This document shows, piece after piece, positions 4,823 through 62,298 of a DNA stretch of 64,000 nucleotides (its first letter is position 1; every line of letters begins with the position of its first letter). The position numbers were made by a program, and so were the translations under genes. Source of the stretch: Candidatus Chloroploca asiatica. GTDB taxonomy: Bacteria; Chloroflexota; Chloroflexia; Chloroflexales; Chloroflexaceae. The notes under the pieces are model-generated. The model was not told the DNA's origin and did not search any database. It saw only the letters and a program-made list of their open reading frames with translations. The stretch is from positions 62,001-126,000 of the forward strand of contig NZ_LYXE01000182.1 of the NCBI RefSeq assembly GCF_002532075.1, given 5' to 3'.

Positions 4823-6070
4823 GTGAACGTTGGTGAATTAGAGCTGAAAACGCTGCATGATCTGCGTGAAATGGCGCGCAAGCTTGATATTACAGGCTAT
4901 AGCGGTCTCAAAAAGCAGGATCTTATCTTCAAGTTGCTCCAGGCTCAATCAGAAGAGCAGGGCAATACGTTTAGTGATGGTATTCTTGATGTTGTGTCCG
5001 ATGGCTTTGGCTTTCTGCGTGGCGAACGGATGCTGCCGGGCGCGGATGATGTCTATGTCTCGCAATCACAGATTCGGCGCTTTGGGCTGCGTACCGGCGA
5101 TCGCATCTGGGGCCAGATTCGCCCTCCCAAAGAGAGTGAGCGCTTCTATTCGCTCCTCCGGGTTGAATTGATCAATGGCGTTGATCCTGAGACAGCGCGC
5201 AAACGCCCCCTGTTTGATCAGTTGACCCCCATCTTCCCCAATCAGCAGATGAAGCTTGAAACCGAGCCGAATTTGTTGCAAACACGCCTGGTTGACCTGA
5301 TTGCCCCGATTGGGCGCGGTCAACGTGGCTTGATTGTGTCACCCCCCAAAGCCGGCAAGACGATGTTGCTCAAGGCGATCGCGAATGGCATCTCGACCAA
5401 TTATGCCGATTGCCATTTGATGGTGCTCCTCATCGGCGAACGCCCCGAAGAGGTGACTGATATGCGTCGCTCGGTCAAGGGCGATGTGATCTCTTCGACG
5501 TTTGATGAGCCAGTTGAGGATCATACCAAGGTCGCCGAGATGACCCTCGAACGGGCAAAACGCCTCGTCGAAGGCGGCCAGGATGTCGTGATTTTGATGG
5601 ACTCGATTACCCGCCTCGCCCGAGCCTATAACCTCGATATGCCCCCCAGTGGTCGCACCCTCTCTGGTGGTATCGATCCGGTCGCGCTCTATCCGCCCAA
5701 ACGCTTCTTTGGGGCCGCACGTAATATCGAGGATGGTGGCTCGCTGACGATTATTGCCACCTGTCTGGTCGATACCGGTAGTCGCATGGACGATGTCATC
5801 TACGAAGAGTTTAAAGGCACCGGCAATATGGAGCTGCACCTCGACCGCAAGCTCGCCGAGAAACGGATCTTCCCCGCACTCGATATTCAGCGCTCGAGTA
5901 CGCGCCGCGAAGAGTTGTTGCTGCCGCCCGATGCTCTCCGCCAGGTCTGGACGCTGCGCCGGATGGTAAGTATGCTCGGTGATAACGAAGGCACTGAGTT
6001 GATGCTGACCCGGATGTCCAAAACCAAGACGAATATCGAATTTCTTGCTACACTAAGTAAAGGCGGATAA
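4823..6070 (+). CDS. rho: Transcription termination factor Rho
   Basis: 415 residues from the GTG at 4823, chosen for the AAGGAG site at 4808-4813; an in-frame ATG at 4790 is an alternative. All Rho parts are visible: the N-terminal helical domain ([27 protein letters not shown], residues 8-40), the RNA-binding cold-shock-like domain ([33 protein letters not shown], residues 54-95), Walker A SPPKAGKT (173-180), the RPEEVTDM segment, Walker [17 protein letters not shown], and the R-loop region [19 protein letters not shown]. The N-terminus has no long insertion. Rho is a hexameric RNA helicase that releases nascent transcripts. Its location between two carotenoid cyclase genes is unusual. Confidence 0.97.
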
Positions 6071-26057: not shown

Positions 26058-26277
26058 ACAGGCCGGGGGCCGGATCCGGTGTAGGGGCACCCCTTGCGGG
26101 TGCCCTGACAGTACAGGCCGGGGGCCGGATCCGGTGTAGGGGCACCCCTTGCGGGTGCCCTGACAGTACAGGCCGGGGGCCGGATCCGGTGTAGGGGCAC
26201 CCCTTGCGGGTGCCCTGACAGTACAGGCCGGGGGCCGGATCCGGTGTAGGGGCACCCCTTGCGGGTGCCCTGATAGC
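26058..26277. repeat. Tandem repeat, 55-bp unit, four copies
   Basis: Near-identical units begin at 26058, 26113, 26168 and 26223. Each contains GGCCGGGGGCCGGATCCGGT and the arm GGGGCACCCCTTGCGGGTGC. The units are family A interior sequence that has expanded in tandem. The absence of unique spacers rules out a CRISPR. Confidence 0.9.
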
Positions 26278-26407: not shown

Positions 26408-29400
26408 ATGCGACACGATCTGCGTTGGGTGCTGGTTGTGGTTTCCGTTCTGGTCGTGCTGGGGCTGGGCGCGACGCTGGCGATGGCCCAGACGCAGGTA
26501 CCGAGCGAAGCGCCGGTGCCGACGGTGACCAGTGAGCCGGTGGTGCCGACGGCTACGCGCACACCTGCCGAGCTTGTTGGGGTTGATGAGATCACGACGA
26601 CCGGGGCTGAGTTGTTGCAACGCTTTGGGATCTGGGGTGCGGTGGGGTTGGGGGTGCTGGCTGCGGCTTTGTTTGTCCTGTACCGGGCTGTCGGCAAGGC
26701 GGGTGAGGGCCTCGGCGATTTTTTGTATCGGGTCTTTCTCGGGCGGTGGCTGAAGCGACGCGAAGAGACTATTGAAGCTAAAGATCAAAAAGCTGCGCAG
26801 GCAAAAGCTCGCCAGTCAGGGCTGACGGCCTATTTTGATTGGCTTGAAGAGGAGTTGAAGCATCTGCCCATCATTCCTATTCGGGCACGTGAGCGGCAAG
26901 AGCAGTTGCTGCTTGAGGATGTGTATGTGCCGTTGCGGGTGGTGGAGCGTGGGCAGATCGAGGGCTTCCTCAAGCTTATTCGGGGTGAATTTGACCCTGA
27001 GGATGAGTATCGTGTGCGTCCAGAGGCCTACCAGGCGCTGGATCGTAGCCAGGGTGTCTATCGGATGTTGAGCGAGCCGGCGTTGCTGCAACAACAAGCG
27101 AAGACGCAATCACGTGAACGCGCGCGCCGGGGTGAGTCTGCTGATGAAGTGCTGGTTGAGCCAACAAGTACGCGCTTGCTGCTAATCGGTGATGCAGGCA
27201 GCGGCAAAACGACCACGCTGCAATATGGTGCCCTGGTGCTGGCCTGTGATTGCCGTGAAGGCCGGGTGGACAAGGCACCTGAACTGCTTGATCTGCATGC
27301 GCCGACGCCCCTTGTGCCGTTTTATATTCGCCTGACGCTTGTTGCTACCTATGTGCGTGAGAAGTTTAAGCGCGCCCAGGGCGAGGCGTTGCCTAGACTA
27401 CAGGACGCACCGAGTAAATTGCTGCTTGATTGGCTTGATGGCTATATCTCGACCCAGATGGATAAACGGGGCGTGCGCCTGGCCGCTGATTTTCCGTCGC
27501 ATCAGCTTGCGAAGGGTGGGTGTTTGGTGATGCTGGACGGGCTGGATGAGACTGGGGATCGGCGTGAACGGGCCTATATGCAGCGCTTAATTGCCAATCT
27601 GATCCAGGATTGTGGCAAGAATCGCTACCTTGTCGCCAGTCGCCCGTTTGAGGATCTGCAACTGCCAGGCTTTGACGAGCGCCATCTGAGCCCGCTCAAG
27701 CGTGACGAGATTGAGCAATTGCTTGGTAACTGGTTTGGGGCTGTGCAAAAGACACGTTCACAGCGTGCCGTCGAGGTTGCCAATGATCACGTCGCGTACC
27801 TGGGCGGGCTGATTGATGCCAATGCGCGCCTCTTTGAAATGGCGACAAATCCCCTCTTGCTGACGAGCATGGCGCTGCTGGTTCATACCGGGGTCGGGTT
27901 GCCACGTGAACGCGCCGAACTCTACAGCCGCTTGATCGACCTGTTGCTGGAGACCTGGCGCACGCAACAGATCACGGGTGGACTGCCAGGCAATGACGAG
28001 GGCAAGACCCGTTATGGTGGCGAAGAGAGTGTGAAAGGGATTCGGCGCAGGCTTCAGGTTATCGCAGCGTGGATGCAAGAAGAGGGGCGGCGTGAATTAC
28101 GCCTGCGCGAGGCGCAAGCTATTTTGCGGCCTGTGTATAAGAAAAACAAATCCTGGGATAACGAAAAGGCCGACGATTATATTGCCAACCTGATCGAGTC
28201 GCTCTCGCTTGAGAGTGGCCTGCTGCAGCGGCGTGACGGCGGGTTTAGCTTTGCCCACTATACGCTGCAAGAGTATTTGACGGCCCTCGCCTATAATGAA
28301 CCTGAGCGAAGCATCGAAGAGCTCTACCAGCACTGGACGAACCGACGCTGGCGCGAGACAATCTTGCTGGCGGTGGGCAACTGGGCGACTGAGGGACCGA
28401 CCGACAAGGCGCATCAACTGATCGAGCGCCTGCTGACAACGCGTGACGAGGCGATCAATGCGGTGCTGCTGGCCGCCGACGCGCTCTATGATGCCGATGT
28501 TGATCGCGTGGTCGAACTCGCCCCCCTGCGGAGTGAGACGCTCAAGCGGTTGCACAGCTATGCGTTTGGCGAAGAAGTGCATCCTGACCCGGTCTTGCGC
28601 AACCGTGCCGCGATGATGCTTGACCGTTTTGGCGCCGACAATGAGCGGCCCGGGCTTGATCTGCGACGCAAAGACTACTGGGCAACTGCGATCAGTCCGG
28701 GCACGTTTCGTATGGGCGATGACGCAGGGAAATATGATGATGAAAAACCCGCGTTTGACTGCACGATCACCGCGAGTTACGCGCTGGCCCGTTTTCCGGT
28801 GACCAATCGCCAGTATCTTGTCTTTCTCGAAGCGCTGGCCGGGCGGGGAGAGGCTGAGGCGCTGGTTGCAGCCGAACGCCTGAAACCACGGCTGAACCGC
28901 CACGACCAGAAGCCTGAACGTTTTCGACCTCGTACTTGGCCGGGGTCACGCTATCTGGCTGGCACAGGGAACCACCCAGTCGTTGCGGTCACCTGGTATG
29001 CAGCAACCGCATTTGCCTGGTGGGCAAATGAATGGCTGCACCTCTGCGGCCTATTGCCGGCGCACGAGACGGTGCGGTTGCCCACAGAAGCCGAATGGGA
29101 GCGCGCAGCCGCCTATCCTGTGCATTTGCCTGGTGGAACGAGCGCGGATGGGCGGCGTACCTACCCCTGGGGCGTGTGGCCAGACTTGACAAGTGCAGGA
29201 GCACCCCGTATAACTAACACCATACCAGCCAACATTGATGCAAGCGGGATTGGCAGCACGTCAGTTGTCGGGCTCTTCCCACATGGACGGGCCGACTGTG
29301 AGGCGGAAGAACTGGCAGGCAATGTTTGGGAATGGTGTAGCACCCCGTACACCACGTATCCCTTCAAAGGCGAGATTAGGGCAGAAATGCTTTACAATGA

Positions 29401-29563
29401 GGGTAAAAAGGCAAGTGACGCATATGTTCTACGAGGCGGGTCGTACTACAACGATAAAGACGACGCCCGGTGCGTTGGCCGCAACGCGTACGACCCGTTC
29501 TACGTCGGCGTCAACTACGGTTTTCGTCTTGCCCGTTTGTTCTCCTCATCTTCGTCTTCTTGA
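26408..29563 (+). CDS. Membrane-anchored NACHT ATPase with C-terminal FGE-type domain; DGR target protein
   Basis: 1051 residues. The N-terminus has a signal-like helix (WVLVVVSVLVVLGLGATLAM, 7-26), a Pro/Thr-rich stretch (30-55) and a membrane helix (WGAVGLGVLAAALFVLY, 76-92), placing the rest in the cytoplasm. A NACHT-type NTPase follows, with Walker A GDAGSGKTT (261-269) and Walker B LVMLDGLDE (about 373-381); a helical region extends to about 745. Residues 758-1045 are a formylglycine-generating-enzyme/C-type-lectin-fold domain (TFRMGDDAGKYDDEKPAF, FPVTNRQYLVFLEAL, LPTEAEWERAAAYP, AGNVWEWCSTPY, VLRGGSYY, YGFRLARLF). The variable repeat encodes residues 1008-1042, the ligand-facing end of this fold. 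STAND/NACHT proteins switch on oligomerisation after ligand sensing, so a diversified receptor is inferred. RT, Avd and template repeat follow downstream. Confidence 0.92.
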   Translation: MRHDLRWVLVVVSVLVVLGLGATLAMAQTQVPSEAPVPTVTSEPVVPTATRTPAELVGVDEITTTGAELLQRFGIWGAVGLGVLAAALFVLYRAVGKAGEGLGDFLYRVFLGRWLKRREETIEAKDQKAAQAKARQSGLTAYFDWLEEELKHLPIIPIRARERQEQLLLEDVYVPLRVVERGQIEGFLKLIRGEFDPEDEYRVRPEAYQALDRSQGVYRMLSEPALLQQQAKTQSRERARRGESADEVLVEPTSTRLLLIGDAGSGKTTTLQYGALVLACDCREGRVDKAPELLDLHAPTPLVPFYIRLTLVATYVREKFKRAQGEALPRLQDAPSKLLLDWLDGYISTQMDKRGVRLAADFPSHQLAKGGCLVMLDGLDETGDRRERAYMQRLIANLIQDCGKNRYLVASRPFEDLQLPGFDERHLSPLKRDEIEQLLGNWFGAVQKTRSQRAVEVANDHVAYLGGLIDANARLFEMATNPLLLTSMALLVHTGVGLPRERAELYSRLIDLLLETWRTQQITGGLPGNDEGKTRYGGEESVKGIRRRLQVIAAWMQEEGRRELRLREAQAILRPVYKKNKSWDNEKADDYIANLIESLSLESGLLQRRDGGFSFAHYTLQEYLTALAYNEPERSIEELYQHWTNRRWRETILLAVGNWATEGPTDKAHQLIERLLTTRDEAINAVLLAADALYDADVDRVVELAPLRSETLKRLHSYAFGEEVHPDPVLRNRAAMMLDRFGADNERPGLDLRRKDYWATAISPGTFRMGDDAGKYDDEKPAFDCTITASYALARFPVTNRQYLVFLEALAGRGEAEALVAAERLKPRLNRHDQKPERFRPRTWPGSRYLAGTGNHPVVAVTWYAATAFAWWANEWLHLCGLLPAHETVRLPTEAEWERAAAYPVHLPGGTSADGRRTYPWGVWPDLTSAGAPRITNTIPANIDASGIGSTSVVGLFPHGRADCEAEELAGNVWEWCSTPYTTYPFKGEIRAEMLYNEGKKASDAYVLRGGSYYNDKDDARCVGRNAYDPFYVGVNYGFRLARLFSSSSSS
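29431..29533 (+). repeat. DGR variable repeat (VR)
   Basis: Aligned without gaps to the template repeat at 31216-31318 (offset 1785). In the last 70 bp (29464-29533), 14 positions differ; 13 are template adenines and one is a C-to-G change. The invariant 3' end GGTTTTCGTCTTGCC is the likely initiation-of-homology site, 30 bases before the stop codon. Twelve template AAC/GAC codons correspond to VR codons for G, N, A, Y, D, F, Y, V, G, V, N and Y. The first 33 bp match less well (see findings). Confidence 0.93.
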
Positions 29564-29640
29564 CTTTTTGTCTTTTTGTCTTTTTGACACTGTAAAGGGT
29601 TTTGTAACCAGTTGAGGCTGAACGAGGGTGGATCTGGGGG

Positions 29641-29683
29641 TGCAGGGGGGCGAAGCATCCCCCTGCAACGCGCCGTAGGCGCG
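29641..29683 (+). promoter_or_regulatory. Paired hairpins between target gene and RT
   Basis: A 9-bp stem (29641-29649 with 29659-29667) and a GC-only 6-bp stem (29669-29674 with 29678-29683, GTA loop) lie 108-150 bases after the VR. Hairpins downstream of the VR are required for retrohoming in the Bordetella phage DGR; here the distance is larger, so they may instead limit transcription into the RT gene. The preceding 29570-29590 is a T-rich CTTTTTGT repeat. Confidence 0.4.
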
Positions 29684-29702
29684 AGGCGAATTTTTATTTT
29701 TT

Positions 29703-30776
29703 ATGAAAACCTATCGCAATTTCTACACCCAGATCTATAGTTTCGAGAACCTGTATGCAGCCTATCGCGCTGCACGTCGGGCGAAACGCGATCGTCCACA
29801 GGTTGCCCAATTCGAGGCACGGCTCGAAGACAACCTCTTGCGCCTGCAACACGAACTGCTGCATCAGACCTATCAGCCCGGTGGTTATCATCATTTCTAT
29901 ATCTTTGAGCCAAAAAAGCGGAAAATCAGTGCGGCACCGTTCCGCGACCGGGTTGTGCATCACGCGCTCGTCAGGGTTATTGAGCCGATCTTCGAACGGA
30001 AATTCATCGCCGACTCATACGCATGCCGTAAGCATAAAGGCACCCATCGTGCGCTTGATCGCTGTACGCATTTTGTGCGGCAGCACCGTTTTGTCTTGCA
30101 ATGTGACATTGCGAAATTCTTTCCGACGATTGACCATGCTGTTTTGAGTGCGATTCTACAACGTACCATTGCTGACCAGAACGTCTTGCAGCTCTGTGAA
30201 GCCATCATTGCCAGTGGCGCGGGGGTACTTGACAGTGAACGCGAACTGCGCTGGTTCCCTGGCGATGATCTCTTTGCCCCACTGCGTCCACAGGGGCTGC
30301 CCATCGGCAATCTGACCAGTCAATTCTGGGCCAATGTGGTGTTAAACGAACTAGATCAGTTTGTCAAGCGCGAGTTGAAATGTCGTGCCTATCTGCGCTA
30401 CGCTGACGATTTTCTGCTCTTTCACGATGACAAGAAGGTGTTGCAAGAGTGGCTGGACATCCTGCGCACCTTTACCGCACAACGGTTACGCCTTCATCTT
30501 CATGATACCAAATGCCAAGTCTTCCCAACCAGCAGTGGTGTACCATTTCTTGGCTTTCGCCACTTTGCCACCCATCGTCGGCTGAAACGACCGAGTGTCG
30601 TGCGTTTCCGTCGTCGGCTGCGCATGTTACAAGTAGCCTACGCGCAAGGTCAGATCAGCCTGGATAAAGCCGGTGCATCGATCCAGAGCTGGTGCGCCCA
30701 TGCGGCGCATGGCAAAACGTACCGTTTACGCAACCAGATCTTGCGCCAAACCCACTTTGGGCCGAGACACAGATGA
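29703..30776 (+). CDS. DGR-type reverse transcriptase
   Basis: 357 residues. RT motifs in order: the N-terminal DGR/group-II-like segment YHHFYIFEPKKRKISAAPFR (62-81), RDRVVHHALV (81-90), the first catalytic aspartate in LQCDIAKFFPTID (D135), PQGLPIGNLTSQFWANV (motif IGNLTSQ at 201-207, the [I/L]GxxxSQ signature that separates DGR enzymes from group II intron and retron RTs), and the catalytic YADD box RYADDFLLF (233-236). There is no maturase or endonuclease domain. It copies the template RNA with adenine-specific errors and the cDNA replaces the VR. No clear ribosome site precedes the ATG. The stop overlaps the Avd start (ATGA). Confidence 0.95.
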   Translation: MKTYRNFYTQIYSFENLYAAYRAARRAKRDRPQVAQFEARLEDNLLRLQHELLHQTYQPGGYHHFYIFEPKKRKISAAPFRDRVVHHALVRVIEPIFERKFIADSYACRKHKGTHRALDRCTHFVRQHRFVLQCDIAKFFPTIDHAVLSAILQRTIADQNVLQLCEAIIASGAGVLDSERELRWFPGDDLFAPLRPQGLPIGNLTSQFWANVVLNELDQFVKRELKCRAYLRYADDFLLFHDDKKVLQEWLDILRTFTAQRLRLHLHDTKCQVFPTSSGVPFLGFRHFATHRRLKRPSVVRFRRRLRMLQVAYAQGQISLDKAGASIQSWCAHAAHGKTYRLRNQILRQTHFGPRHR

Positions 30777-31129
30777 ACGAAATTCCCATCTTTGCGAAAA
30801 CGTATGATCTGTTATTGTGGCTTGTGCCAACTACACTGAAATACCCGCGTGAACACCGTTTTGCGCTGGCCTTGCGCACCCAACAAGCGGCCTTTGATTT
30901 CAACGAATTGATTATCCAGGCACGCAAGAGCCGTGACAAACGCGATATATTAATACGCGCTGACACGCATCTTGAGCAGCTACGGATCTATCTACGCCTT
31001 GCCCATGACCTGAAACTGATAACGTCGCGCCAGTATGAACATGTCAGCCGTGAAGTAAGCGCGATTGGCGCATTGCTCGGCGACTGGATGAAGCGTACTG
31101 GGACAACCCAGACCCGAAATGCTCCCTGA
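30773..31129 (+). CDS. avd: Avd, DGR accessory variability determinant (four-helix bundle)
   Basis: 118 residues, starting at the ATG at 30773 that overlaps the RT stop, so its translation is coupled to the RT. It is all-helical: IPIFAKTYDLLLWLVPTTLK, FALALRTQQAAFDFNELIIQ, LIRADTHLEQLRIYLRLAHD and SREVSAIGALLGDWMKRTG form four helices typical of the bAvd / 23S-intervening-sequence-like family. Avd forms a basic pentameric barrel that binds the RT and template RNA and is needed for mutagenesis. Arginine and lysine residues line helices 2 and 3. Confidence 0.93.
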   Translation: MNEIPIFAKTYDLLLWLVPTTLKYPREHRFALALRTQQAAFDFNELIIQARKSRDKRDILIRADTHLEQLRIYLRLAHDLKLITSRQYEHVSREVSAIGALLGDWMKRTGTTQTRNAP

Positions 31130-31215
31130 GGTGCCTCCTGGCGATCGATGCACAACGACGGAACAGCCGAGCAGCGCCCATGTTGACCAGAAGGAACTGA
31201 CCGCCATTCCACCTA

Positions 31216-31318
31216 ACGTGGTGGGTTGTGAGAGTCATCTCACAACAACGCCCGGTGCGTTAACCGCAACGACAACAACCCGAACAACGACAACGACAAC
31301 AACGGTTTTCGTCTTGCC
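31216..31318 (+). repeat. DGR template repeat (TR)
   Basis: Homologous to 29431-29533. The diversifying part reads AACGACAACAACCCGAACAA and continues with further AAC/GAC units to 31303, the adenine-rich codon pattern of DGR templates. It lies 86 bases after Avd, downstream of all DGR proteins. The 5' part (31225-31246) holds a perfect 9-bp inverted repeat (GTTGTGAGA, GTCA loop, TCTCACAAC) that has no counterpart in the VR. Confidence 0.92.
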
Positions 31319-32126
31319 ACTCGCGCTCCTTGCCCGCCGGAAATGTGTCGGAACGCCCTGATAAAGCCAGGGTCGGGAATGACGCCGAGGTTTTTGAGGA
31401 GAACGACAGGTCAGTTCCTGGTTCGTCACCTGATGAGCCAAACAAGCTCCGTGCCGCTCCCTGTGGTAAGCGCAACCCCGCTGAAGCCTGGAGCGGCGTC
31501 ACCTCCACCCCGTTTTTGACGCCAAGGCGCCAAGGCGCAAAGTTCCGTATAATAATACCCCAAACCTCCGCGCCTTTGCGTCAGATCTCTCTGCGCCTTT
31601 GCGTCACATTCACCCTGTTTTTGACGCAACGCTGCCTGGGGGCGCAGCAGCGATGACAGGGGCCTGTTGTTGACGGGCAGGCCATGGGCTGCTGCGCCCC
31701 TACATTCGCGCCCCGTCGCCGTTATCCATTGCGGTGCCCGTTGCCGTGGGCATGGAATTGGTCCGTCGCCGTCAACCACCCCGGTGCCGGCACATGTAGG
31801 GGCGCAGCAGCCCCTACGCAGCTTCTTCATCACAACGTCGCTTCATCGCTGCTGCGCCCTGCCGTGGGTATGGGATCGGTCCATTTGCCGTCATTCGCCC
31901 CGGTGCTTCGCGCCTTTGCGTGAAACAAGCCCGTTTTTGACGCCAAGACGCCACTGCCACCAACGCTGCCCGTGGGCGCAGCAGCGATGAGAGGGGCCGT
32001 TTACCAACGGGCGGGCCATGGGCTGCTGCGCCCCTACATTCGCGTGAAACCTCCCCCAAACCTCCTCATCCCTCTGTGCCTCCGCGCCTCCGCGCCTCTG
32101 CGTTAAAACCCCTCCGCGCCTCCGCC
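31319..32126. other. Gene-free repeat-rich region after the DGR
   Basis: 800 bases with no credible gene. It contains GACGCCAAGGCGCCAAGG-type repeats (31516, 31577, 31906-31950, 32085) and three copies of a second palindromic repeat, family B: 31617-31710, 31795-31825 and 31961-32044. The arms are GGGCGCAGCAG and CTGCTGCGCCCCTACA. A fourth family B copy is at 35616-35687. Confidence 0.7.
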
Positions 32127-35100
32127 TCACTTCCACCCATGCGTTGCCTCGGTCACTACGCGGTAGTTGGCGTCGAGCGCGGGTTCCAGCAGCAGGATGG
32201 CGGCGATGCGCCGGGCGATGTCGCGGACTTCGCGGGCTTCGTCGATGCTGAGGCTGCGTCCGAGTAGCGGGCGTTCGCGGTAGCTGAGCCATTTTTTGAG
32301 TACTTGGTAGCCGCCGATGGTGTAGGCCCAGATGGTTGGCGGGATGTTGCGCCAGTAGACGCGGTCGTTCAGGTAGATGTCGAGCGTTGTTCCGCCGGCG
32401 GCGCTGCCGAGCGCGGGGTTGACTTCGCCCTCGTTGGCGGCGCGTTCGACGACGCGGCCTTTGCCGGGCATGGTGATGCCGCCGCGTCCGGCGTAGCCCC
32501 AGCCTGCGGTGAGGTCGAGGTCGCCGGCGCTCGGGTTGATCTGCCCGCCTCCGATGATGCTTAGGATGCCGATGGGGCGCAGTTCGTCACGGGGTGCGCC
32601 GCTGGTGACGCCGGGCACCGGGCGTTCGCTGTCGAGCAGCGCTGCGATCTGTCGCCCGAGTTCCGCTGAGGCGAGCAGTGCTGCGCTCGTGGCTGGCAGC
32701 GGGATGCGCGGCCAGTCTTGGCGCAGTGCATCAGCATTCGCAACGAGGTATTCCTTGGAATAACCAATGGCTAAGGCGTGCATCCATAAGAGATCGCTGG
32801 CGTGAGGATGGGCAATTCCGAGATCGGCAAGGTATTGAATGGCTTGAGCCGAGAGGTTGGATCGCTCTGCTTCATCGTGAACATCATCGAGAAAGCTATG
32901 CTGTTTGGCACCCCAACCCTGCATTTTCAACGGAAAACAATCGCTTCCAGGTCGAGTTAGATGACGATCAGCAAGATTATTGACGGTAAAAAATGGCGTA
33001 CCTTCATTCTGGCGCTCGGCTTTTTGGCGCGCTATGAGGAACTTGTTCCCTGCCTGAGCCGCAGCAAAGAGATCTGGCCGTTTTTCATCCAGTAATTTGG
33101 TCTTTGGATGCCAGTAGACAAAGCGGGTATCAAAAGGTTGATAGGTGTAGCGGACAATAAAGCCACTATTTTTGCCCAGTGGTAGCAACTCCTGGCGGGT
33201 TTGGGCAGCATTGTATCGTGCTGATGAGCGCATGATCGATGGCAGCATTGTCAGCAGCGAATCATTACTTCGTGATGGATCGAAGTACATGTTGAGCTTT
33301 GCTTCAAGGACTTCACGATCAATAGCGACTAGGTCGGCATCACGGCTTGTATTCACCCCTGGGGATGAAACAGGAAACAACTTAGGCAGCAGCGGCCAGC
33401 CCAGGTAATCAGCCTGTACCTGCGCTGGCTGGAAGGGGAAGCCCAGCGGCGCGGGCGGGTCAAGCAGTTGGTAGGCAGTGGTGGTGTCTGGTTGCGTGGC
33501 TGCGGTGTCCAATTCGGTGCGTTTTTCGCGGCCCCAGAAGTTGCGAAAGGCGATCGCTGCCTCTTTGGGCTGCGGTCCTCGACGCACCATCAGCGCAATC
33601 GCCGTGCCGACCTGAATGCCTTCGCGGTTGAAGTCGGTCGAGAAGACGCTGGGATCGGGTTGGCCGTCGGGCGTCAGCTTGCCGGTGCGGTACTTGTCGC
33701 CGTTGAGCGAGTCGATCCAAATCCGATCAAAGACCTCCAGGTAGCGCTCGCGCATGCCGGTGAACGAGAGTCCGTCGAGCCAGGAGTAGTTCGAGATGTA
33801 GCAGACGACGCCGCGCCGACTGGTTTCGACGATTTGGCGTTCGGCCATGCGAAAGAAGCGCACATAGAGGTCGTTGAGCCCCTGGCCCTGCGGTGCCGGG
33901 GCGCGCTTGGTCGTGCGATAGGCATGGGAGAGATCGCGCTCCTCTTCGATGCGCGCAATGCCGGCGTAGCCAGAGTAGGGCGGGTTGCCGAGGATGACCA
34001 GGATGGGCGCCCCACGCTTGATCTGCTCGGCCTGGTCGCGCTCGTCCTGGAGTTCGGGGAGACCGGGGAAGCGCAACTGGACGGCCTGCTTCGGATCGTC
34101 GGGCGGCTCCCAGCCGGTGAGCGCGTTGGTCAAGTAGACGCCGACGCGCTCGTCGTCGGCGAGTGGCGCACCGAGTTGCTGCAGCAGCAAGCCAATCTGG
34201 AGGTGAGCAACGACAAAAGGCGCCGGCAGCAACTCAAAGCCAAAGACCCGGCTCAGCGCGGCGCGCTTGACATCCTGGCCCAGCAGCGCATCCTCGCCCC
34301 TGGCGCGCAACGTCGCCGCAATCTGGCGCAGCACCTCGGCGACATACGCCCCGGTGCCGGTGCAAGGGTCGAGCACGATCACACTGGGGTCAGCCAGACC
34401 ATCGGCCACCCCCAACTCGTCGCGCAGGGCGGCATCAACGCGGGCGACCATATAACGCACCACCTCGGGCGGCGTATACCAGACCCCCAGATCCTTGCGT
34501 AGCTCGGGGTCAAAGGCTTCGAGAAAGGGCTCGTAGAAGTACTGCACGGCGTGGCCGGTATCGAAGCGAGCGAAAAACGCGCCCCGCTCGACCCGATTGA
34601 GCGCCGCGCCGGTCCAGTCCAGCACCTCCATCAGACCAAGCGGCCTGAGGCGCTGAGGCGTCGAAATCTGGCTAAAGAGCGCCTGGAGCACCGGGACGTG
34701 CAGGTAGTACTGCGCCAGACGCCAATCGAAGCTATCGCTGCGCTCAGGATCCTCGTGGTGCCAGAGCACCCAGGCCGAGAAGACGCCATAAAAGAGCGTC
34801 TGGATCAGCGTCGAGCGAAAGAAATGGTCGCCGCGCTGCTCGTTGAAGCTAATGCCAAGCGCCTCCTCCAGCGCCTTGCGCACCTGCCGCAGGGCAGGCA
34901 ACTGCGAATGCTCAACGCGCATCCGGGCATCGCGGGCATACGAGGCGAGGAACCAAGCCACATCGGCGGGGCTCGTCAGCGGGGCGGCAGCAAGCAACAC
35001 CCGCTTGAGATACTCAACCAAACGCTCGCGGTGGGTCGCGGCAAACGCCACCGGATCAGCGACCTGCGCCCAGAACTCCGCCTCGTTCGCCGCGAGGCGA

Positions 35101-35522
35101 TAACGCTCCTGGGGCAGCGGGCGACCGTGGGCATCGCGCCCAACGAGCACAAAATCGCGATAATTCGTCACCAGCACCTGACCATACCCGTCGAGGTACT
35201 TCTGAACCTGCGGACTACGGGCAATCGTCGTCACATCATCGCCGGCCCCCTTCACCTCAAGCACCCCACGGGCAGGCAGCGGCGCGGGAAAAGCATCGGA
35301 AGGCGCGTGACGACCAATCTGATCAGCGGTAAAAAGACCGCCATCAGGGATGCCCGCACCGCGATTCTTCAGCGTAAGGACACAGCGCACCCGCGGACGC
35401 AACTCAGCGCCGACCGCATTGAGCAGCGTGCTAAGCGCCGGATAAAACGACGTCTCTTTGACCGCAGAGCCAGAAGAGCGAATATCACGGAGATCGCGGA
35501 GATAGGTGGCAACGATATCCAT
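32127..35522 (-). CDS. Single-chain restriction-modification enzyme (nuclease, adenine methylase and specificity, type ISP/IIG-like)
   Basis: 1131 residues from the ATG at 35522, with GAGG upstream. The N-terminus carries a PD-(D/E)xK-type nuclease pattern: E23 in KETSFYPAL, P59-D60 in GAGIPDGG and E89-V-K91 in GVLEVKG. Residues about 350-560 are a gamma-class N6-adenine methylase: motif I VLDPCTGTGAYVAEVL (about 383-398) and catalytic NPPY in ILGNPPYSGYAG (about 515). The C-terminal half resembles the type ISP specificity region (PFDTRFVYWHPKTKLLDEKR, IYLNDRVYWRNIPPTIWAYT, GYQVLKKWLSYRE). There is no helicase, unlike LlaBIII-type ISP enzymes, so it should cut near its site without translocation. 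No separate restriction subunit lies nearby. Confidence 0.85.
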   Translation of the reverse strand: MDIVATYLRDLRDIRSSGSAVKETSFYPALSTLLNAVGAELRPRVRCVLTLKNRGAGIPDGGLFTADQIGRHAPSDAFPAPLPARGVLEVKGAGDDVTTIARSPQVQKYLDGYGQVLVTNYRDFVLVGRDAHGRPLPQERYRLAANEAEFWAQVADPVAFAATHRERLVEYLKRVLLAAAPLTSPADVAWFLASYARDARMRVEHSQLPALRQVRKALEEALGISFNEQRGDHFFRSTLIQTLFYGVFSAWVLWHHEDPERSDSFDWRLAQYYLHVPVLQALFSQISTPQRLRPLGLMEVLDWTGAALNRVERGAFFARFDTGHAVQYFYEPFLEAFDPELRKDLGVWYTPPEVVRYMVARVDAALRDELGVADGLADPSVIVLDPCTGTGAYVAEVLRQIAATLRARGEDALLGQDVKRAALSRVFGFELLPAPFVVAHLQIGLLLQQLGAPLADDERVGVYLTNALTGWEPPDDPKQAVQLRFPGLPELQDERDQAEQIKRGAPILVILGNPPYSGYAGIARIEEERDLSHAYRTTKRAPAPQGQGLNDLYVRFFRMAERQIVETSRRGVVCYISNYSWLDGLSFTGMRERYLEVFDRIWIDSLNGDKYRTGKLTPDGQPDPSVFSTDFNREGIQVGTAIALMVRRGPQPKEAAIAFRNFWGREKRTELDTAATQPDTTTAYQLLDPPAPLGFPFQPAQVQADYLGWPLLPKLFPVSSPGVNTSRDADLVAIDREVLEAKLNMYFDPSRSNDSLLTMLPSIMRSSARYNAAQTRQELLPLGKNSGFIVRYTYQPFDTRFVYWHPKTKLLDEKRPDLFAAAQAGNKFLIARQKAERQNEGTPFFTVNNLADRHLTRPGSDCFPLKMQGWGAKQHSFLDDVHDEAERSNLSAQAIQYLADLGIAHPHASDLLWMHALAIGYSKEYLVANADALRQDWPRIPLPATSAALLASAELGRQIAALLDSERPVPGVTSGAPRDELRPIGILSIIGGGQINPSAGDLDLTAGWGYAGRGGITMPGKGRVVERAANEGEVNPALGSAAGGTTLDIYLNDRVYWRNIPPTIWAYTIGGYQVLKKWLSYRERPLLGRSLSIDEAREVRDIARRIAAILLLEPALDANYRVVTEATHGWK

Positions 35523-35704
35523 GCACGGCCTCGGGGACACAGTGCGACGCCTTGCTGCCAAGCGCGCCGGGAGCGGCGATCGATGGTGTTTCTGATGGCA
35601 AGTATAGCATACCCCGTTTTTGACGCAACGCTGCCTGGGGGCGCAGCTCGCTCCGGGCGGGCCATGGGTTGCGGCGCCCCTACACCCGGCCTGGTACCTG
35701 CTCC

Positions 35705-61935: not shown

Positions 61936-62298
61936 TCACCCGGGCGTTCCGGTAGCGGTGACTGGTGCATCCACCGCCACGGAAAAAGTTAATTGTGCAT
62001 AACCATACAAAAAAAGATCTTCACGCAGGGCTTCATCAACCTTCACTATCGCGGGTTCGCGGCTATGGTATGCTCAGACCAGGAGCCTCCCTGCATCATC
62101 GCCATGCTGACCGTGCGTTGGGTTGTTCCCGCGGTGGGTCGTGTCCACCTGATCCTTTTCCGTACGCCGGCGATGAAGCGTCGCGATGCGCAGGAGGCCG
62201 TCTTTGCCCACCCTGCGCCCGTGGCGCGCCCGTGGCCTCGCTGACGCCATCGTGTGCAGAGGCACGGCGGGTGGTGATGGTACGAAGGGAGACCCGTG
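61936..62298. other. Gene-free region before the RCC1-repeat gene
   Basis: About 360 bases. It begins in repeat DNA (GCGCCTTTGCGCC near 61918) and shows no coding frame or clear promoter. A GAAGGGAG ribosome site at its right end serves the next gene. Confidence 0.5.

Follow-up and report, generated by a model that had tools for sequence, protein, structure and literature searches.

The stretch analysed here (the window) comprises 64,000 nucleotides, positions 62001–126000 of contig C181 (NZ_LYXE01000182.1) in the 5.84-Mb draft genome of Candidatus Chloroploca asiatica, a filamentous phototrophic bacterium. At window positions 26408–31505 lies a diversity-generating retroelement (DGR), in which the target gene, the reverse transcriptase (RT), the accessory protein Avd, the template repeat (TR) and a spacer follow one another head to tail on the plus strand. 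An earlier note on this DNA had proposed a complete DGR, and all of its parts, including the variable repeat (VR), were found through profile matches and A-specific mismatches between TR and VR. The boundary given there, 31318, only marks where the TR stops; the conserved DGR RNA runs on to approximately 31505. The host genome contains only one RT of DGR type and one VR. A second RT, on contig C85, is just ~30% identical to the DGR RT, and no further copies of TR or VR were found elsewhere in the window or, within 3 mismatches, in the genome. Judged by RT (76–82% identity), the nearest named relatives belong to the Chloroflexales: Candidatus Oscillochloris fontis, Candidatus Viridilinea halotolerans and Chloroflexus islandicus. 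The comparison draws on draft assemblies, and its closest level is that of congeneric species.

The RT (29703–30776) matches Pfam RVT_1 (E=2.8e-23) and carries the motifs LPIGNLTSQ and YADD. Among solved structures it is closest to the 'Reverse transcriptase' chain of 8ub7 (E=1.7e-51). In the alignment with this chain, the catalytic motifs D, G(L/I)PIG..TSQ and Y.DD are all aligned, the window RT having GLPIGNLTSQ and YADD, and the motifs are intact. Avd (30773–31129), whose gene overlaps that of the RT by 4 nt, matches Pfam bAvd and NCBIfam NF033474 (E=2e-31, above the NCBIfam cut-off).

The target gene (26408–29563) encodes a protein of 1051 amino acids for which hydropathy, profile searches and a structure model indicate a signal peptide, a transmembrane (TM) helix, a NACHT/NLR-like module and a C-terminal formylglycine-generating enzyme (FGE)/CLec domain. 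Pfam recovers both domains named in the earlier note: NACHT (residues 257–443, 27176–27736, E=7.5e-8), with conserved Walker A GDAGSGKTT and Walker B LVMLDGLDE, and FGE-sulfatase (residues 762–1043, 28691–29536, E=4e-42). Hydropathy agrees with the membrane anchor also proposed there. Residues 1–27 (26408–26488) form a signal-peptide-like hydrophobic N terminus ending in AMA before Q, a cleavage site assigned by eye; a Pro/Thr-rich linker separates it from a single TM helix (residues 73–91, 26624–26680), which is followed by a basic segment. The same layout of signal peptide, linker and TM helix before NACHT recurs in related loci (L009, L010, L012, L018, L098 and L093). The basic residues C-terminal to the helix would place NACHT and FGE in the cytosol, with the variable face turned inward. 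A reading of the target as a surface receptor was rejected on this predicted topology.

The AlphaFold2 model of the target (mean pLDDT 71) resembles NLRP3, NLRC4 and NOD2 with Z of 18–19, mostly over residues 132–750, and its FGE part matches PorK with Z about 12. A model of the FGE domain alone had a mean pLDDT of 56, too poor for mapping the VR on a surface. A catalytic formylglycine-generating enzyme, as in SUMF1, needs a pair of Cys near the C terminus. The FGE segment between LRGGS and GFR contains one Cys only, within the segment rewritten by the DGR. Because a single Cys stands where the enzyme needs two, the domain is most likely a non-catalytic binding fold. The target has 22 matches in its own genome, with NACHT and/or FGE homologues on contigs C117, C126, C147, C155 and C167; no second VR or TR was found in the genome for these homologues.

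The VR (29457–29533) ends in a 3' anchor, GGTTTTCGTCTTGCC, at 29519–29533. The TR (31242–31318) contains 26 adenines and, in the VR frame, 14 AAC/GAC codons. Of the mismatches between the two repeats, 15 are at A and 2 at non-A positions, a concentration on A with a hypergeometric P of 5e-8, and every A change affects the first or second position of a codon. The 14 codons allow ~10^15 DNA variants and ~5x10^14 protein variants, with zero stop codons possible. The conserved 3' flank of the VR (29534–29600) consists of CGTTTGTTCTCC, a putative counterpart of the initiation of mutagenic homology (IMH) element, and a T-rich (GTCTTTTT)n block. A perfect-stem hairpin, GTGCAGGGGG..CCCCCTGCA, lies ~105 nt downstream between target and RT (29640–29667) and is found in most relatives. 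In 6/6 species compared, VR and TR share the 3' end GGTTTTCGTCT(T/C)GCC but part beyond it, the VR continuing into CGTTTGTTCTCC-type and the TR into ACTCGCGCTCC-type sequence, an IMH/IMH*-like asymmetry.

Searching without gaps for repeat pairs biased towards A turned up a TR/VR pair at most related loci; because such a search favours A-only mismatches, the pooled mismatch rate is biased. We also compared the VRs of five orthologous loci directly (window, L009, L011, L012 and L054). They differ from one another at 112/197 shared TR-A sites and at 4/417 other shared sites. The Oscillochloris fontis locus (L010) was excluded: near 5508–5530 a 1-nt insertion in the VR of its target shifts the C-terminal frame. 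Related DGRs at L016, L021, L023, L038 and L049 have a second VR on the other side of the RT and TR, and the window locus has a single target.

The same target is present in two congeneric genomes, with 93% (G001) and 90–91% (G002) amino acid identity, in loci that are syntenic with the window and about 95% and 92% identical in DNA. The earlier note had looked to VR variation between close relatives, and the comparison of congeneric species was positive. At the 26 TR-A columns, the VR differs from that of the window at 20 (G001) and 17 (G002), compared with 1/51 other columns; the two congeners differ from each other at 14/26 TR-A columns and 0/51 others. Both congener VRs equal the window TR at every non-A column except one at the 5' boundary. 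Between the window and the congeners, the ratio of nonsynonymous to synonymous divergence (dN/dS) is 0.26–0.30 outside the VR, and 17 and 6.5 inside it. The target is thus under purifying selection outside the VR, and between congeneric species only the VR segment is hypervariable.

Directly 3' of the TR, starting with the IMH*-like ACTCGCGCTCC, lies a structured spacer RNA of three domains (31319–31505), defined by alignment, covariation and covariance models. These ~190 nt are strongly conserved among relatives. RNAalifold predicts 54 pairs in the alignment, 24 of them changed on both sides; 94% of cells in the MAFFT alignment pair, compared with 33–45% when partners are slid, and 0/500 shuffles reached as high a covariation score. 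Eight distant loci, each folded alone, show the same three domains. We built two covariance models: R1, from the TR end and spacer, and R2, from the spacer without TR sequence. The window spacer scores 181 bits with R1, and both models match other Chloroflexota loci and the Planctomycetota loci L044 and L049. Where the TR was mapped, most strong matches begin at its 3' end; at L016 the match begins ~100 nt past the mapped part. An R2 match in L095 (23.6 bits), in seemingly coding sequence, was taken as a false positive. Near-consensus spacer RNAs also occur at L093:8029–8215 (minus strand, 167 bits) and L113:1695–1872 (minus strand, 156 bits), next to targets with no RT left (L093) or with fragments of one (L113).

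In BPP-1, the spacer folds to recruit RT-Avd and carries the priming adenine (PMC12875486). By analogy, the spacer RNA here is probably an RT-Avd loading and priming element. It might instead serve mainly as a transcription terminator or mRNA stabiliser, given that its last hairpin is GC-rich and, in some relatives, precedes a run rich in T. Two further 5' domains covary independently of that hairpin (helices 3, 5 and 7), however, the single-stranded motifs GAGAA..ACAG, GCCAAA and GTGGTA are conserved, and the TR-free model R2 still lands at TR ends. We therefore regard this alternative as very improbable. A limited Rfam library gave no spacer match beyond weak, chance-level miRNA-type ones, and a limited literature search found no description of covariation in a DGR RNA. 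The BPP-1 spacer itself did not match R2 with filters off, although divergence may mask kinship.

From these observations we conclude, with good confidence, that the DGR diversifies one host sensor, an NLR-like protein tethered to the inner membrane with a cytosolic variable face, and that the mutator was lost in two sister species. Following the BPP-1 model, the TR-spacer transcript would fold 3' of the TR, RT-Avd would bind there, and mutagenic cDNA would be primed within the spacer. This cDNA would then take the place of the VR, with the shared GGTTTTCGTCTTGCC and, on the 5' side, GCCCGGTGCGTT as guides, and the unlike flanks (CGTTTG 3' of the VR, ACTCGC 3' of the TR) would protect the template. 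In the target, an NLR-like NACHT ATPase anchored at the inner membrane would hold the sensor in the cytosol, where the FGE face may bind a ligand, probably phage or other invader components. Ligand binding could make the NACHT modules oligomerise at the membrane and set off a response that either protects the cell or kills it. In the two sister species, the mutator would have been lost and the selected receptor kept.

Several points weigh against this reading. The sensor and immune roles of the target, its ligand and the effector step are inferred by analogy. A Pfam profile search found no effector domain in the target, the PADLOC models (2023 library) gave no match to it, and 0/5 window neighbours were found as conserved partner genes in loci from other genera. 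The window TR, at ~77 nt, is shorter on its 5' side than the TRs of 95–110 nt in L009–L012 and L054. Finally, the RT-Avd-TR-spacer block (window ~29650–31625) is missing in both G001 and G002.

The role of the receptor could also lie elsewhere, in self/non-self or kin recognition or in cell-cell signalling within filaments or mats rather than in anti-phage defence. The hosts are filamentous and related to Chloroflexus and Oscillochloris, and variable FGE/CLec folds bind many ligand types. Set against this are the predicted cytosolic position of the variable face and the link of NACHT/NLR architecture to anti-phage defence (PMC10907252), and we consider such a role unlikely.

The absence of the cassette from the congeners bears on the history of the element. 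No RT or Avd was found at the congener locus in either genome, and neither a TR nor a close DNA copy of the cassette was found elsewhere in them; the sequence is continuous through the cassette site, with no N. The cassette seems to have been lost after diversification of the receptor. That the lineage of the window gained it is less likely, since the congeners' VRs must themselves have been rewritten by a DGR carrying this TR. By synonymous divergence (dS), the window and G001 are the closest pair (0.10, compared with 0.15–0.16 for the others); the shared absence in G001 and G002 therefore needs two losses or exchange between lineages. The right breakpoint of the missing cassette falls in dispersed repeats. 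Since both congeners do without the cassette, continuing DGR activity is not a must. Of the 'self-evolving receptor' put forward earlier, diversification by the DGR stands, but the closest relatives have kept the receptor without the mutator. Decay is also seen farther away: L113 retains RT and Avd fragments and the full spacer RNA, and L093 retains a 47%-identical target and its spacer, with no RT. A further target homologue without a DGR (L095, G029:C1:3712036–3715125) has an in-frame TAG early in the gene.

These losses raise the question whether the window DGR is itself degenerating, such that diversification is past, the 5'-shortened TR is now poor or inactive, and the receptor has in effect become fixed, like that of the sister species. 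The two congeners without the cassette and the decayed copies in L093 and L113 speak for this, as does the 5' part of the TR, which no longer matches the VR; the VR codons upstream of 29457 are therefore probably frozen. However, the RT and Avd frames are open with motifs intact, the spacer keeps its 181-bit R1 score, and the 77-nt TR/VR match is anchored at both ends. L013, L014 and L036 have short TRs as well, and Chloroflexus loci with similarly short TRs retain RT, Avd and spacer. We thus consider degeneration possible but rather unlikely.

Beyond the reading of a DGR that diversifies one membrane-tethered sensor, we tentatively make a broader proposal, in which our confidence falls somewhat short of even: that the ~190-nt spacer represents a hitherto undescribed family of structured RNAs in Chloroflexota and Planctomycetota DGRs, and that in this lineage the DGR is a disposable mutator, with which species diversify a membrane-tethered NLR-like receptor before they discard RT, Avd and TR and retain the selected receptor under purifying selection.

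DGR-diversified NACHT/nSTAND1-CLec targets have been described in multicellular bacteria, including filamentous Chloroflexi, with FGE as a CLec subtype (PMC10907252), and NTP-dependent conflict systems with DGRs form a wider group (PMC7159879). The likeness to diversified NTPase conflict systems noted earlier is thus borne out. By target architecture rather than RT clade, the locus belongs with the STAND-CLec DGR sensors (clade 5D, PMC10907252; Thiohalocapsa PB-PSB1 DGR 3 and DGR 6). It shares with them the DGR, a central STAND NTPase, a CLec/FGE domain at the C terminus whose end carries the VR, a multicellular or filamentous host and, in some, membrane placement. The membrane-anchored form, singled out earlier as worth studying, is no new departure: NACHT+CLec DGR targets of membrane placement are already reported, with targets predicted to be cytoplasmic or periplasmic (DGR 3, PMC10907252). 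The window locus differs in having a single target whose N terminus is a signal peptide and one TM helix, and an EAD or peptidase partner was not found there. As for the vWA-MoxR ternary conflict system, a scan of the target and of six genes around it (21.3–38.3 kb) revealed neither vWA nor MoxR components.

With the BPP-1 DGR, the locus shares RT, Avd, A-specific TR/VR changes, IMH/IMH*-like asymmetry and a structured spacer 3' of the TR. The order is different (target-RT-Avd-TR-spacer rather than mtd-avd-TR-brt), the target is a chromosomal host gene and not a tail fibre, R2 does not match the BPP-1 spacer, and where BPP-1 has an inverted repeat immediately 3' of the IMH, the window has a T-rich block, with the hairpin at 29640 lying ~105 nt farther on. 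Avs/bNACHT proteins and animal NLRs have a similar fold of Walker A/B NACHT and helical domains (Z about 18–19 against NLRP3, NLRC4 and NOD2) and the same layout of N-terminal extension, ATPase and C-terminal sensor. Unlike them, the target has a DGR-mutated FGE domain as putative sensor and a membrane anchor without a known effector at its N terminus.

The surroundings of the element have two further features. About 0.6 kb downstream of the DGR, on the minus strand (32127–35561), is a Type ISP/IIG restriction-methylase gene (PF18135 E=1.6e-39; PADLOC REase_MTase_IIG 1e-86) that is kept in both congeners. Just upstream of the target start, at 26070–26275, are ~4 head-to-tail copies of a 55-bp GC-rich unit, with fewer copies in the G001 alignment.

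To the known systems this locus adds comparative evidence of hypermutation in the lineage, a spacer RNA family and retention of the receptor without the mutator. Within the lineage, cultured Chloroflexus and Oscillochloris relatives have the same cassette, the hypermutation signal is clear, the RNA is defined and sister species carry a fixed receptor. Two questions therefore become testable: what role the spacer RNA plays in DGRs other than BPP-1, and why a diversified receptor is retained by hosts that lose its mutator. By DGR rewriting of one patch, a cell could generate very many versions of a sensor, and DGR-tuned NLR-like sensors may represent a bacterial route to adaptive, antigen-sensor-like immunity, as has been proposed.

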